Shown: piece after piece, positions 829-47,186 of the stretch | How the letters are laid out: each line of letters opens with the position of its first letter | How positions within the stretch are numbered: the first letter of the stretch is position 1 | Origin: Pedobacter ginsenosidimutans | GTDB taxonomy: Bacteria; Bacteroidota; Bacteroidia; Sphingobacteriales; Sphingobacteriaceae | DNA length: 64,000 bases | Assembly: GCF_001442625.1 (NCBI RefSeq) | Contig: NZ_LMZQ01000003.1 | Span: forward strand, 124,001-188,000 | Direction: 5' to 3' | Position numbers and translations under genes: made by a program | The notes under the pieces: generated by a model | What the model saw: the letters and a program-made list of their open reading frames with translations, nothing else | The model's database searches: none | Told to the model about the DNA's origin: nothing

Positions 829-985
829 GGCCATGGTTTTGCGCCCTGCAGCCCTAGATAGGATGAATGGCCGCGCCGCTTAAACCTGACAGCAGCGAAC
901 ATCCCGACGTAAAGTCTGGATAAAGCGAATGGCAGACCATCCTACACCCAAATGCTGCTGCAATTGCTTTCCAAAAAAAATGAAT
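829..985 (-). repeat. Dispersed repeat, long family, copy A
   Basis: About 155 bases almost the same as 1200-1352. Shared landmarks are GGTTTTGCGCCCTGCA, CTTAAACCTGACAGCAGCG, a hairpin ATCCCGAC-GTAAA-GTC(T/G)GGAT, and the end CTGCAATTGCTTTCCAAA. Orientation is given relative to TTTGGAAAGCAATTGCAG as the left end. Confidence 0.75.
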
Positions 986-1126
986 AGTTATCTGTATTAT
1001 TTAGGCCTAATCTGAAAACGAGCGTTCCAGTCTCTGCAGGTACTGTAGCCCCGTTATCCACTCCAATCTTTTTATTGCAATTCTAGCCTACATGCGAAAA
1101 GCTTAAATAAATTTTCCGTTCAGGCA

Positions 1127-1352
1127 ATAAAAAGGATTTCCGTTACTACCGGGTTTAGGAACAATGGGTCTGTGGGTTTTGACCTTTCGACTGTCCTTTG
1201 CAGGCAATGGTTTTGCGCCCTGCAACCCTCAATAGTAAAACAAGCTGTGCCACTTAAACCTGACAGCAGCGAACATCCCGACGTAAAGTCGGGATAAAGC
1301 GAATGGCAGACCATCCTACACCCAAATGCTGCTGCAATTGCTTTCCAAAAAA
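1127..1352 (-). repeat. Dispersed repeat, long family, copy B
   Basis: This is the most complete minus-strand copy. One end is CAATAAAAAGGATTTCCGTT and the other CTGCAATTGCTTTCCAAA. The copy at 46805-47008 has the same two ends in the opposite orientation, which sets the element at about 200-225 bases. No transposase and no clear target duplication were seen. Confidence 0.75.
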
Positions 1353-1463
1353 ATAGATAAATGTGTAAGGGAATACGCTATCGAGCATAACTTGTTGCCC
1401 GAATAACGCATGCAGGGAGAAAACTTATTGATAAAGATCCCTCCACTGCGGTCGAGATGATGA

Positions 1464-4565: not shown

Positions 4566-5879
4566 ATGGAACAAAAAGATAGCTTAAAAAAAACACTTAC
4601 CCCTTTTATGCTGTGGGGACTTGGCGTTGGATATGTGATTTCGGGAATGTATTTCGGCTGGAACTTAGGCCTCGAAAAAGGTGGTACACTGGGTATGGCC
4701 ATCGCTACGGTTGCCATTATGGTGATGTATGTTACCTTTAGTTTTAGCTATGCCGAACTGGCCTGTGCTATACCAAAGGCCGGTGGTGTTTTCGATTATG
4801 CCAATACAGCACTGGGCAAAAACATCGGTTTTATTGCCGGTATTGCTCAAATGGTCGAATTTATATTTGCACCCCCGGCTATTGCATTTGCCATTGGTGC
4901 TTATTTTAATGCCTTCTTCCCACAGGTACCCATTCTTACCAGTGCAATTGCAGTTTACTTTGTCTTTACCGCCCTAAATGTTTATGGCGTAAAAGCTGCC
5001 GCTTCGTTCGAAGTAATTATTACTGTTCTAGCAGTCGGAGAATTGCTGTTGTTCTCTGGAATTACATTGCCTAAATTTCATGTAGAAAACCTGGTGCACA
5101 ATAACTTTCCAAATGGCTGGAGCGGTGTTTTTGCAGCTATCCCTTTTGCCATCTGGTTTTTCCTGGGCATTGAAGGCGTTGCAAATGTAGCCGAAGAAAC
5201 CAAGAACCCACAACGCGATATCAGCAAGGGTTTTGGCTGGGGCATATTTACATTGGTTGTTTTATGTGTGCTTGTTTTTATCTCTACCATTGGTATTGGC
5301 GGTTGGGAAGCCATTGTATATAAAAACGGAAAATCGGGCGAAACCTCTGATTCGCCTTTACCACTTGCCCTTTCGATGATTACAGGGGATAATCACCTGA
5401 TGTATCATTTACTCATCACGGTTGGATTATTTGGCCTGGTAGCCTCTTTTCATGGATTGGTTTTAGCGGCTGGTCGCTCCACTTACGAGATGGGTCGTGT
5501 AAAAAGTATCCCAGCTATTCTTGGAAAAATTTCACCTAAATTTCAAACACCCGCAAATGCGTTAATAGGCAATATGATGATTGGTATCATCGCACTTTTA
5601 TCGGGTAAAACGGCCGAAATTATTATCATTTCTGTATTTGGTGCACTAACTTTATACATCATTTCGATGATTTCGGTAATGGTGCTGCGGAAAAAGAATC
5701 CCGAAATGGTTCGGCCTTTCAAAACCCCGGTTTATCCTTTATTTCCCATTATTGCCTTAATTATTTCCTGCGTTTCTTTCATCGCAATGCTGATTTATAA
5801 TCTTAAATTGGGTTTAATTTATTCGGGTATTGTTTTAGGCATATTTCTTCTATATAAAATATTTAAAAAGGCAGATTAA
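4566..5879 (+). CDS. eat: Ethanolamine permease (APC family)
   Basis: A 437-residue integral membrane protein with about 12 hydrophobic helices. It resembles the ethanolamine permease branch of the amino acid-polyamine-organocation family: GLGVGYVISGMYFGWNLGL at the N-terminus, FSYAELACAIPKAGGVFDYA in helix 2-3, and IEGVANVAEETKNPQRDISKG in the central loop. The expected role is uptake of ethanolamine by secondary transport. The stop codon overlaps the next start by one base (TAATG), so it is translationally coupled to the glutamine synthetase-like gene. Together with the oxidoreductases that follow, this supports an amino-alcohol substrate. A related small amine cannot be excluded from sequence alone. 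Confidence 0.88.
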   Translation: MEQKDSLKKTLTPFMLWGLGVGYVISGMYFGWNLGLEKGGTLGMAIATVAIMVMYVTFSFSYAELACAIPKAGGVFDYANTALGKNIGFIAGIAQMVEFIFAPPAIAFAIGAYFNAFFPQVPILTSAIAVYFVFTALNVYGVKAAASFEVIITVLAVGELLLFSGITLPKFHVENLVHNNFPNGWSGVFAAIPFAIWFFLGIEGVANVAEETKNPQRDISKGFGWGIFTLVVLCVLVFISTIGIGGWEAIVYKNGKSGETSDSPLPLALSMITGDNHLMYHLLITVGLFGLVASFHGLVLAAGRSTYEMGRVKSIPAILGKISPKFQTPANALIGNMMIGIIALLSGKTAEIIIISVFGALTLYIISMISVMVLRKKNPEMVRPFKTPVYPLFPIIALIISCVSFIAMLIYNLKLGLIYSGIVLGIFLLYKIFKKAD

Positions 5880-7240
5880 TGAGTACGAGCAAAGAAATTC
5901 TGGATTACGTTAAAAATCATCCCTCTGGAAAAGTAAAATTAGCGGTTGCCGATATCGACGGTATTTTAAGGGGGAAATATGTAGCTGCCGAAAAATTCGC
6001 CTCCCTGGTTGAAGGCCGATTGGGTTTCTGTGATGTTACCTTTGGCTGGGATGCAGGTGATTTGGCTTACGAAAACGGAAAATATACAGGCTGGCATACT
6101 GGCTACCCCGATGCACAGGTTAAAATCGATCTGACCACGTTCCGGAAAATCCCCTGGGAAAATGACGTACCTTTCTTTTTGGGCGATTTTATTGACGATC
6201 AGGACCAGGCAAATTATGTCTGTCCGAGGCAGTTGCTAAAGAAAGTAATTGCAGAATGCGAAAGTGAAGGATTTTCGCCGCTCTTTGCACAGGAATTTGA
6301 ATGGTTCAATTTTTCGGAAACACCAGAGACAATCCAGGAGAAAGGCTTCGCTAATTTAAAACCGTTAAGCCCGGGCATGTTTGGTTATTCTATTTTGAGG
6401 AGTACCTACCGGAATGAGTTTATGAGCGATCTGTTCGAACTGCTGAACAAATTCGATATCCCGATTGAAGGTTTGCATACCGAAACCGGGCCGGGAGTTT
6501 ACGAAGCAGCCATTAAGTATGCGCCTGCCTTGCAAGCTGCCGACCAGGCCATATTATTTAAAACAGCCGTAAAAGAAATCGCCTATAAACACGGTATCCT
6601 CGCTACATTTATGGCGAAAATAAGCGAAAACTTACCGGGATGTAGTGGCCATGTGCATCAAAGCCTCTGGGATGCGGACAAAAAGATCAATTTGTTCTAC
6701 GATGAAAAAGATGCAGATAATATGAGCGAAATAATGAAAAGTTATATCGCTGGTCAGTTGCACTGCCTTCCATACCTTTTACCTATGATTGCCCCTACTA
6801 TAAACAGTTACAAACGTTTAGTTGAAGGTGCATGGGCACCAACTACGGTAACATGGGGAATTGATAACCGTACAACTGCATTACGTGCTTTACCAGGAAG
6901 CAAAAAGGCATCACGCTTAGAAACCCGGATAGTAGGTTCAGATACCAATCCTTATTTAGCACTTTCGGCCTGTTTGGCTGCAGGTATGTACGGTGTTAAG
7001 AATAAATTAAAACTCGAACAGCCAGCCACCAAAGGAAACGGATATACCGATTTATCGAACGGCACACTATCGCGTAATTTGTTTGAAGCGACGCAAAAAA
7101 TGAAAAATTCTGATCTGGCCGCAGCATTATTGGGCGGAGATTTCGTTGATCATTTTACGATGACCCGCGAATGGGAATGCAAGCAATTTGCTAAAGTAGT
7201 AACCGATTGGGAGCTCAAAAGATATTTAGAAATTATTTAG
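5879..7240 (+). CDS. Glutamine synthetase-like gamma-glutamyl-amine ligase
   Basis: 453 residues with the glutamine synthetase fold: an N-terminal beta-Grasp part, then the catalytic domain with HTETGPGVYEAA (Glu metal ligands), GCSGHVHQSLW (nucleotide-site His) and DNRTTALRALPGSKKASRLE followed by ETRIVGSDTNPY (phosphate-binding Arg and Glu). The early segment ADIDGILRGKYV is typical of the amine-ligating GlnA-like branch (PuuA, IpuC, GlnA3/GlnA4) rather than ammonia-assimilating GlnA. Such enzymes join the gamma-carboxyl of glutamate to an amine using ATP. In this operon the amine is inferred to be ethanolamine, giving gamma-glutamylethanolamide. It starts by one-base overlap with the permease stop. 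Confidence 0.88.
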   Translation: MSTSKEILDYVKNHPSGKVKLAVADIDGILRGKYVAAEKFASLVEGRLGFCDVTFGWDAGDLAYENGKYTGWHTGYPDAQVKIDLTTFRKIPWENDVPFFLGDFIDDQDQANYVCPRQLLKKVIAECESEGFSPLFAQEFEWFNFSETPETIQEKGFANLKPLSPGMFGYSILRSTYRNEFMSDLFELLNKFDIPIEGLHTETGPGVYEAAIKYAPALQAADQAILFKTAVKEIAYKHGILATFMAKISENLPGCSGHVHQSLWDADKKINLFYDEKDADNMSEIMKSYIAGQLHCLPYLLPMIAPTINSYKRLVEGAWAPTTVTWGIDNRTTALRALPGSKKASRLETRIVGSDTNPYLALSACLAAGMYGVKNKLKLEQPATKGNGYTDLSNGTLSRNLFEATQKMKNSDLAAALLGGDFVDHFTMTREWECKQFAKVVTDWELKRYLEII

Positions 7241-23674: not shown

Positions 23675-23807
23675 ACCAATCTAATATCTTAACTCACCAA
23701 ATAGAATAAAAGACTTGTTGATTTTCTTTTTTGGAAATCAGGGACAGCTATTTTTCGGATGAGACAGCCCCGCTTTACACTTTACTCCGTTGCACTTCGT
23801 GTTCGCT

Positions 23808-23880
23808 GCAATCGGGTTTAGGTGGCGCGGCCAGCAGTACTATTTCAAGTTGCATGGTGCAGAAAAAGGAAGCCGGCCCT
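23808..23880 (+). repeat. Dispersed repeat, long family, copy C (partial)
   Basis: GCTGCAATCGGGTTTAGGTG, then GCGCGGCCAGCAGTACTATT and TTGCATGGTGCAGAA. It matches the middle of the copy at 46805-47008. Confidence 0.65.
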
Positions 23881-23989
23881 ACATGATTCGCCGGATCAGA
23901 GAGTCTGTGAGCACACAGACCATGACTCGAAAAGAAATCTATATAAAATATGCTATTCAACCTCTAATAGAAGCAAAGACCTTGCCCTT

Positions 23990-24106
23990 TAAACCTGATT
24001 GAAATGGAAAGCCCGGAACCCGATCCTTTATCGGGTGAGGACTTGCAATGAAAAGCAGGACGAACAATAAAAAGAGCCTCTGCAATTGCTTTCCAAATTA
24101 TCCTTT
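23990..24106 (-). repeat. Dispersed repeat, long family, copy D (degenerate)
   Basis: Ends CTCTGCAATTGCTTTCCAAA and carries GAAAAGCAGGACGAACAATA, which pairs with a segment in copy E (34848-35020). Confidence 0.6.
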
Positions 24107-25695: not shown

Positions 25696-25710
25696 TTTAT
25701 TTTTATTTAA

Positions 25711-25850
25711 TTATTAGTATCAAGTATTAAGTATCGAGTATCAAGACCTTAAGCCTTTAACCCTCTACCTTCAACCTTATTTATTAGTAGTCAGTATTAA
25801 GTATCGAGTATTAAGACCTTAAGCCTTTAACCCCCTACCTTCAACCTTAT
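25711..25850. repeat. Tandem duplication, two 70-base units
   Basis: The unit starting TTATTAGTAT at 25711 repeats at 25781 with only a few changes. Each holds AGTATTAAGTATCGAGTAT, AAGACCTTAAGCCTTTAACC and CTACCTTCAACCTTATTTA. The second unit ends exactly at the prs stop codon. Confidence 0.9.
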
Positions 25851-34717: not shown

Positions 34718-34847
34718 AGTAATTATTTTTAGTTTGCAGTGAACAGTTTTTTGTTTGCTTTTTTGAGGGGATAAATTGTTTCCAAAAGTTGGCAAACCAG
34801 GAGCTATGTGCAAAGAATTTGCAGTCTATAGAATCTAAAATTATGAT

Positions 34848-35020
34848 TTGGAAAGCAATTGCATTGGCACTTTGGTTTGGTTCCGTCCTGCTCTCCCTCC
34901 TGCCACGAAGGGTGGCATCCGTACGATCAGGTTTATATTATTATGGCTTCTGCAGCTATGCCGGGTTTCCGTGCCACCGCCCTAACCTACCTAGCCCTGA
35001 TTGTAATGGAAAGCAGGACG
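34848..35020 (+). repeat. Dispersed repeat, long family, copy E
   Basis: Begins ATTTGGAAAGCAATTGCATT and includes GGTTCCGTCCTGCTCTCCCT, GATCAGGTTTATATTATTAT and ATTGTAATGGAAAGCAGGAC. The left end matches the other copies; the middle has drifted. Confidence 0.65.
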
Positions 35021-35109
35021 AACGATAATTATTACACTGCAACTGCGCTCCGAATTTTTACAAGCATTTATACCATTTGCTAGAATTCTGTTGGTCCTGG
35101 AAAAATAAT

Positions 35110-35230
35110 ATCATTTGGAAAGCAATTACAGTGGTGCTTCGGTTAAAACAGTCCTGCCATTTGCTTTAGCCCAGATGAAAAAAATCTGGGGCTACCACGG
35201 CTGTCAGGTTTAGATTACACCTGTTCCTGC
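35110..35230 (+). repeat. Dispersed repeat, long family, copy F (degenerate)
   Basis: Begins ATCATTTGGAAAGCAATTAC and includes ACAGTCCTGCCATTTGCTTT and GGCTGTCAGGTTTAGATTAC. The same block order as copy B reversed, with an ATCTGGGCTAAAG / AATCTGGGG hairpin in the middle. Confidence 0.6.
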
Positions 35231-35294
35231 AACTATGCCAAGTTTCCGATCCGCTGCCTAAAAAGAGGTTCGTGAAGACACGAACCTTGGCGAG

Positions 35295-46609: not shown

Positions 46610-46804
46610 TCTAATTTGCCTTTTATATATCAGTGCCCAAAAGCTTTATTTTTTCCTAAGGAAATTTTAACTTTTTTTTAACACGACCGAATATATGCCC
46701 TGAATGAGAATACAACGAAGAAATTTAATTTGCAGGAATAGTATTTTCAAAGGTTCTAAAGGGTAGGGCAGATATTTTTATTACTTAAATAATTGCAAGT
46801 TTTT

Positions 46805-47008
46805 TTTGGGAAAAGCAATTGCAGAAGCAATGGGGAGTGATAGTCCTGCTATCCGCTTTATCTCACTGCGTTCAATGCCCGCTTCTATCAGGTTTAGGTG
46901 GCGCAGTCTGTTTTACTATTTGGGGTTGCAGGGTGCAGAACCGGTATTGGGAGCACAAGGCCTTCTATTCCTAAACCCGGTAGTAACGAAAATCCTTTTT
47001 ATTGCTTA
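46805..47008 (+). repeat. Dispersed repeat, long family, copy G
   Basis: From GGGAAAAGCAATTGCAGAAG to CGAAAATCCTTTTTATTGC. Blocks match copy B in reverse: ATCCGCTTTATC, TCAGGTTTAGGTGGCGCAG, GTTTTACTATTTGGGGTTGC, AGGGTGCAGAACC and AACCCGGTAGTAACG. Confidence 0.75.
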
Positions 47009-47186
47009 AAAAGTATTTAATTATAACGTTTATCTGCAATAAAAAGATTGGAGTGCATAACGGGACTACAGCACCTACGGAGACAGAAATGTTCGTTTTC
47101 CAAATAAAAAAATAACCATCAAGCTGGCTGAAATTGCGAATGGAAGGCTTTCGAAAATTTAAGATGAGTTGAAGTGGCAATAAAAG

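Follow-up and report, generated by a model that had tools for sequence, protein, structure and literature searches.

The window, a 64,000-nucleotide stretch of a Pedobacter ginsenosidimutans contig, carries an intergenic repeat without coding capacity at six places (846-979, 1007-1353, 23726-24101, 34843-35057, 35110-35264, and 46800-47107) that together hold ten half-units. An earlier note on this DNA had described a dispersed repeat family with at least seven copies, in both orientations and only between genes, and that description stands, as all seven listed places hold the repeat. Its tally has to be revised, because the ten halves fall in six places and the left half at 1007-1193 had been missed.

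Nearest the start of the window lies a single half-unit on the minus strand (821-979; profile match 846-979), which has its outer end at 979, bears the terminal motif GCTTTCC, and is 89% identical to 1195-1353. It is followed by the inverted dimer at 1007-1353, recovered through profile matches, whose left half (1007-1193, plus strand) has a decayed outer end and holds a hairpin recognized by cmscan as Flavo-1 (1043-1160, minus strand, 53.2 bits), and whose right half (1209-1353, minus strand) has the outer end CTGCAATTGCTTTCCAAAAAAA. The dimer at 23726-24101 joins a left half at 23726-23868 (plus strand), also present in the sister genome G080, to a right half at 23942-24101 (minus strand), with a Flavo-1 hairpin at 23987-24066 (plus strand, 44.7 bits). 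The profile also located a complete dimer at 34843-35057 and a single plus-strand half-unit at 35110-35264. In the remaining dimer, the left half spans 46800-46942 (plus strand, outer end 46800-46822), the right half spans 46914-47107 (minus strand, outer end CGTTTTCCAAA near 47094-47104), and the Flavo-1 hairpin occupies 46969-47071 (plus strand, 57.2 bits). All three hairpins score above the gathering cutoff of 42 bits for Flavo-1 (Rfam RF01705), a likeness in sequence plus structure, and the covariance model gave 80 matches genome-wide, 38 of them above the gathering score.

A profile built from genomic copies and run against 2.2 Mb of Pedobacter DNA defined a half-unit of ~150 bp that in most cases has an inverted partner half attached; the paired halves are oriented >< in 54 cases versus <> in 2, and the median dimer length is 300 bp (range, 194 to 402). 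Within a half-unit, TTTTTTGGAAAGCAATTGCAG is followed by about 20 nt, the hairpin, GGTTTA, and the linker; the inverted dimer reads TTTTTTGGAAAGC, hairpin, linker, inverted hairpin, GCTTTCCAAAAAA, so that its terminal ends are TTTTTTGGAAAGC and its inverse. The block ATCCTTTTTATTGC, earlier taken for an end of the element, belongs to the Flavo-1 stem, of which it makes up one arm. Both the copies and their common ends extend beyond the window: a profile search found ~45 half-units on the 678-kb contig, dozens of copies occur in the whole Pedobacter genome, all of them intergenic, and the 21-base end motif was found in 44 stretches from named genomes, of which 41 belong to Pedobacter or Sphingobacteriaceae bins. 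Copies occur in all four gene contexts, on which ground a role in the transcription unit, as terminator or promoter, was rejected. Single halves showed no preference relative to co-directional neighbors (9 sense, 13 antisense), and one contig had a moderate excess of copies at convergent intergenic positions.

The window also holds other repeats. Almost all Pedobacter genomes searched contain many copies, 90 to 96% identical, of a ~70-bp repeat found at 664-735 (GTCATTCCCGCG...GGGAATGACGA); its conservation greatly exceeds that of the Flavo-1 elements, and it is likely a recently active REP family. Between it and the first Flavo-1 copy, the DNA at 740-800 looks like a second copy of the 3'-terminal part (1464-1520) of an AIM24-like gene that lies downstream, as it does in several relatives. 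Two tandem 70-bp copies, 91% identical, occupy an intergenic position at 25707-25846.

A covarying hairpin and an end-foot pairing code

The covariation in the hairpin that the earlier note had suggested looking for proved strong among 110 distinct paralogous halves from the organism's own genome. Across seven pairs of the lower stem, 95% of pairings were Watson-Crick, and one pair showed all four types (TA 38, AT 33, GC 14, and CG 14), with 99 of 104 Watson-Crick versus 31 expected. G.U wobble was scarce, with 18 instances on the Flavo-1 strand and 6 on the opposite strand out of ~716 cells, a share of 2.5% versus 6.3% in a tRNA control so small (six distinct tRNAs) that the shortage of wobble carries little weight. 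Purine mismatches are confined to the Flavo-1 strand, where two 3x3 internal loops and a single mismatch are conserved as G.A/A.G; folded as single-stranded DNA, this strand was modestly lower in energy for all three window hairpins.

The 46.8-47.1 kb site, which lies between the sigma-factor and FecR genes, was compared across 12 species. Its right half has arms that hardly vary amid diverging intergenic DNA, and its left half has undergone compensatory changes in place. Hairpin tips, by contrast with these arms, are swapped wholesale between orthologous copies; the hairpin with a GTAAA loop, once proposed as a common feature, is found in two copies, where the loop is merely a swappable apex. 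In a comparison of C3:5384-5623 with G080 5874-6112, one hairpin is now a perfect palindrome and tips have been replaced by other repeats (CCGATGAAAAATCGG, CTTCGACTCCGCTCAGG), changes for which either template switching or a nested insertion at the tip may be responsible. We also observed a second repeat type that has the same core hairpin and other termini (GGGCGT...ACGC), which apparently close a three-way junction. It lies at C3:539265-539406 (L091), at 171197-171286 within a 400-kb stretch of G080, and at L306, L307, L313, and L327, and may be the commoner form outside Pedobacter.

When all column pairs were scanned with no prior expectation, two pairs beyond the stem, columns 10-124 and 11-123, ranked with the stem pairs, tying the terminal motif of each half to its own hairpin foot. 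This code takes two forms, TTTGG-AAA-GC with CAGG-TTT-A and TTTGG-AGC-GC with CAGG-GCT-A. Both occur in the dimer at 34843-35057, where the left half has the letters AAA/TTT and the right half AGC/GCT; at the 46969-47071 hairpin, where the end-foot columns share in the family-level covariation, a guide-like AAA at ~46973-46975 is complementary to TTT at ~47097-47099. Exact triplet complementarity was found in 90 of 100 halves from the organism's own genome (62 expected; permutation P = 5e-5) and in 212 of 227 halves from the 2.2 Mb of Pedobacter DNA, a set that includes orthologous copies (151 expected). Among 34 dimers whose halves differ, 26 had both halves matching their own foot and not that of the partner, and none matched only across. 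Subfamily linkage as the cause was rejected: the strongest partner of column 10, by mutual information, is its foot partner, and on a tree of halves built without the code columns the end state switches at least 5 times in the organism's own genome and 10 times overall, so the match does not reflect one linked lineage. Dimers in which both ends read AGC were absent, versus 74 that were AAA/AAA or mixed, which may hint at some difference between the two ends. Inspected by eye, Flavo-1 copies in other families obey the same rule in other letters (GGAGC/GCT in G056; GCGT/ACGC in G044 and G050). Outer-stem pairings of GGTTA with TAACC and of GTAGC with GCTAC showed no covariation in the all-column scan and were dropped. 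We regard the anatomy and the end-foot code, as described here, as very probably correct.

In IS200/IS605 elements, cleavage sites are picked via complementarity to a guide just 5' of the hairpin foot, and at the right end the guide's partner is the tetranucleotide that ends the element (PMC6006769, PMC8266576). Read on the Flavo-1 strand, each half runs in the same order, from guide through hairpin and linker to complementary terminus, which supports a single-strand DNA mechanism but does not prove it, since the triplet could instead pair to close a junction in folded RNA or DNA, and such a helix would covary too.

Age, distribution, and the search for a partner enzyme

In the sister genome G080, whose genes are 92 to 96% identical, 16 of 17 comparable sites are occupied, and the 34.8-35.3 kb site is occupied in 14 of 14 relatives with a readable intergenic region. 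From this site sharing, the family appears to be old and nearly static. The exception, 829-1353, is absent from G080 and occupied in 11 of 17 relatives, by which a recent insertion there was rejected; the site comparison makes loss in G080 most likely. Within the genus, clades have the family all or none, and individual sites show copy losses. Empty sites were seen in G080, G001, and G090, with flanks too diverged to place borders or a target duplication; neither a clean target duplication, one of the signs the earlier note had named, nor a recent transposition emerged. By sequence comparison, present copies appear essentially immobile, and some are probably under purifying selection. At the site orthologous to 46.8-47.1 kb in L113 (G063), the entire dimer, together with ~40 bp of flank, stands in a tandem array of three, amplified via tandem duplication and not by insertion.

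The suggestion of a partner transposase or RAYT gene with matching ends was not borne out: the organism's own genome has six Y1 genes and the relatives examined have more than 60, and none of these more than 70 Y1/RAYT loci was flanked by copies of the Flavo-1 element. The RAYT-type genes inspected were instead surrounded by their own different repeats, and the Flavo-1 element was accordingly rejected as a RAYT cognate repeat. No autonomous copy, or open reading frame between two distant ends, was found in the 2.2 Mb, and no match was found on a plasmid or phage.

Across 119 genomes of the genus, 63 had both Flavo-1 and RAYT-type Y1 genes, 45 had neither, 9 had Flavo-1 only, and 2 had RAYT only (Fisher P = 3e-21). 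On an rpoB tree this co-occurrence rests on about four changes; two of the contrasts are informative, and they agree, the independent G060/G087 pair being among them. Three genomes (G122, G125, and G072) have 22 to 34 copies without RAYT, no Y1 was detected in G044, from another family, which has 26 Flavo-1 copies, and among positive genomes copy number did not correlate with RAYT number (rho, 0.09). Given the few changes on the tree and the RAYT-less genomes with 22 to 34 copies, a link between Flavo-1 elements and Y1 enzymes is plausible and unproven.

Nearly every Bacteroidota RAYT gene inspected sits amid its own hairpin repeat family, with sequences that differ per RAYT (L059-L062, L064, and L379-L398), and these genes and repeats represent a ready-made set of enzyme-repeat pairs. 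One such repeat reaches the window, where a GGTTCGTGAAGACACGAACC hairpin at 35260-35290 matches the repeat found beside subclass 2.6-like RAYT genes of relatives (L381, L382, and L396).

Nature of the element and comparison with known systems

The earlier note had left a choice between a non-autonomous mobile element and a structured RNA family. Its second option anticipated the standing of this hairpin, and the evidence favors a non-autonomous element acting at the DNA level, given the terminal inverted repeats, the guide-like pairing of end and hairpin, and the lack of sense or antisense bias. Data from Flavobacterium psychrophilum, in which Flavo-1 matches are found in sense and antisense alike and many give no transcript (PMC9723704), agree. 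We infer that DNA rather than RNA is the acting molecule and that the enzyme class is Y1/HUH. The odds tip slightly toward these repeats being old, non-autonomous, intergenic DNA elements that originated in Y1/HUH-like single-strand transposition. Two self-contained ends, inverted, would make up such an element, each with a hairpin that bears mismatches and has a guide triplet at its 5' foot, then ~30 nt, and then a terminus complementary to the guide. The hairpin, the Flavo-1 fold favored on one strand, would have been bound by a Y1/HUH-type single-strand DNA transposase with IS200/IS605- or REP-like chemistry, and pairing of guide and terminus would have selected the cleavage point. Dimers may then have spread in the ancestor of the present Pedobacter clade, and the transposase may since have been lost. 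A wider proposal, which we offer tentatively, is that Flavo-1, rather than being an RNA, serves as the recognition end in a so far undescribed Bacteroidota lineage of single-stranded DNA mobile elements, built from two inverted guide-hairpin-terminus modules and served by an HUH-type enzyme, in which types with the termini TTTGGAAAGC, GGAGC, and GGGCGT/ACGC would share the hairpin and the guide-terminus rule.

Other readings account for parts of the evidence. A chromosomal protein involved in nucleoid structure, replication, or termination could bind the paired hairpins as a host-maintained DNA site, mobility being long past or never present; the 16 of 17 sites common to G080, full occupancy at 34.8-35.3 kb, in-place compensation and near invariance at 46.8-47.1 kb, and the moderate convergent excess on one contig would fit, yet we judge such a site unlikely in view of the all-or-none distribution within the genus, the losses at individual sites, the fast exchange of hairpin tips, and the guide-terminus code. 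It is similarly doubtful that the hairpin is a small RNA or mRNA element, with copies as RNA genes or untranslated-region modules and the end-foot pairing as the closing helix of a multiloop. That reading follows the Rfam model and the description of Flavo-1 as an RNA motif (Weinberg 2010, PMC2864571), and strong covariation, the excess of G.U on the Flavo-1 strand (18 versus 6), and the near invariance of one half at an orthologous site speak for it; against it stand the balanced sense and antisense placement here and in F. psychrophilum, where many matches are silent, the rarity of wobble relative to the small tRNA control, and the inverted dimers with common terminal repeats. A miniature element mobilized by a classical DDE transposase would have terminal inverted repeats such as TTTTTTGGAAAGC...GCTTTCCAAAAAA, a length of ~300 bp, intergenic placement, and no coding capacity, all of which are seen. 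This origin is improbable, as no target duplication was seen at borders that diverged flanks made unresolvable, no autonomous element with these ends was found in the 2.2 Mb or on plasmids or phages, and the end-foot complementarity within halves and the conserved mismatches would be left unexplained.

Flavo-1 is counted as one of the most abundant "small RNA" families of bacteria (PMC9029176), and since 2010 it has had no assigned function. Should it prove to be a DNA-element end, many annotated small RNAs would be mislabeled. The guide-terminus code predicts base changes that would retarget cleavage.

Among known systems, each half on the Flavo-1 strand resembles the right end of IS200/IS605 in geometry, with a subterminal hairpin and a guide complementary to the terminal motif (212 of 227 triplets, within halves). 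In IS200/IS605, however, left- and right-end hairpins lie on one strand, whereas here the two ends are inverted and their hairpins face opposite strands, and those elements have a Y1 transposase, whereas no transposase or related autonomous copy with the same ends was found at the loci examined or in the 2.2 Mb. REP, BIME, and REPIN sequences (TnpA_REP, RAYT) are likewise intergenic and numerous, with irregular-stem hairpins, a guide 5' to the hairpin foot, and inverted pairs, a pairing shared here in the >< arrangement. They differ in having GT[AG]G at the 5' hairpin foot, where these repeats have TAAACC or TAGCCC on the Flavo-1 strand; in a unit of 21 to 65 nt (PMC6006769) rather than ~150 bp per half; in occurring in hundreds rather than tens of copies; and in adjoining a cognate tnpA_REP gene, where none of the more than 70 loci was so flanked. 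The "atypical" REPs of TnpA_REP subclass 2.6 (Quentin 2018, PMC6006769) come from the same phylum, and similar-looking genes are present in the organism's own genome, but the genes inspected have different repeats beside them (e.g., GGTTCGTG..CACGAACC) and not Flavo-1. The Rfam Flavo-1 model describes the hairpin of one half only, which here sits inside an inverted dimer with conserved termini, an end-foot code, and DNA-like behavior. As REP/BIME-like intergenic hairpins, these repeats are of an ordinary kind; what is new is the detail, in which Flavo-1, an sRNA in Rfam, makes up half of a larger, inverted DNA element whose ends follow a guide-terminus base-pairing code.
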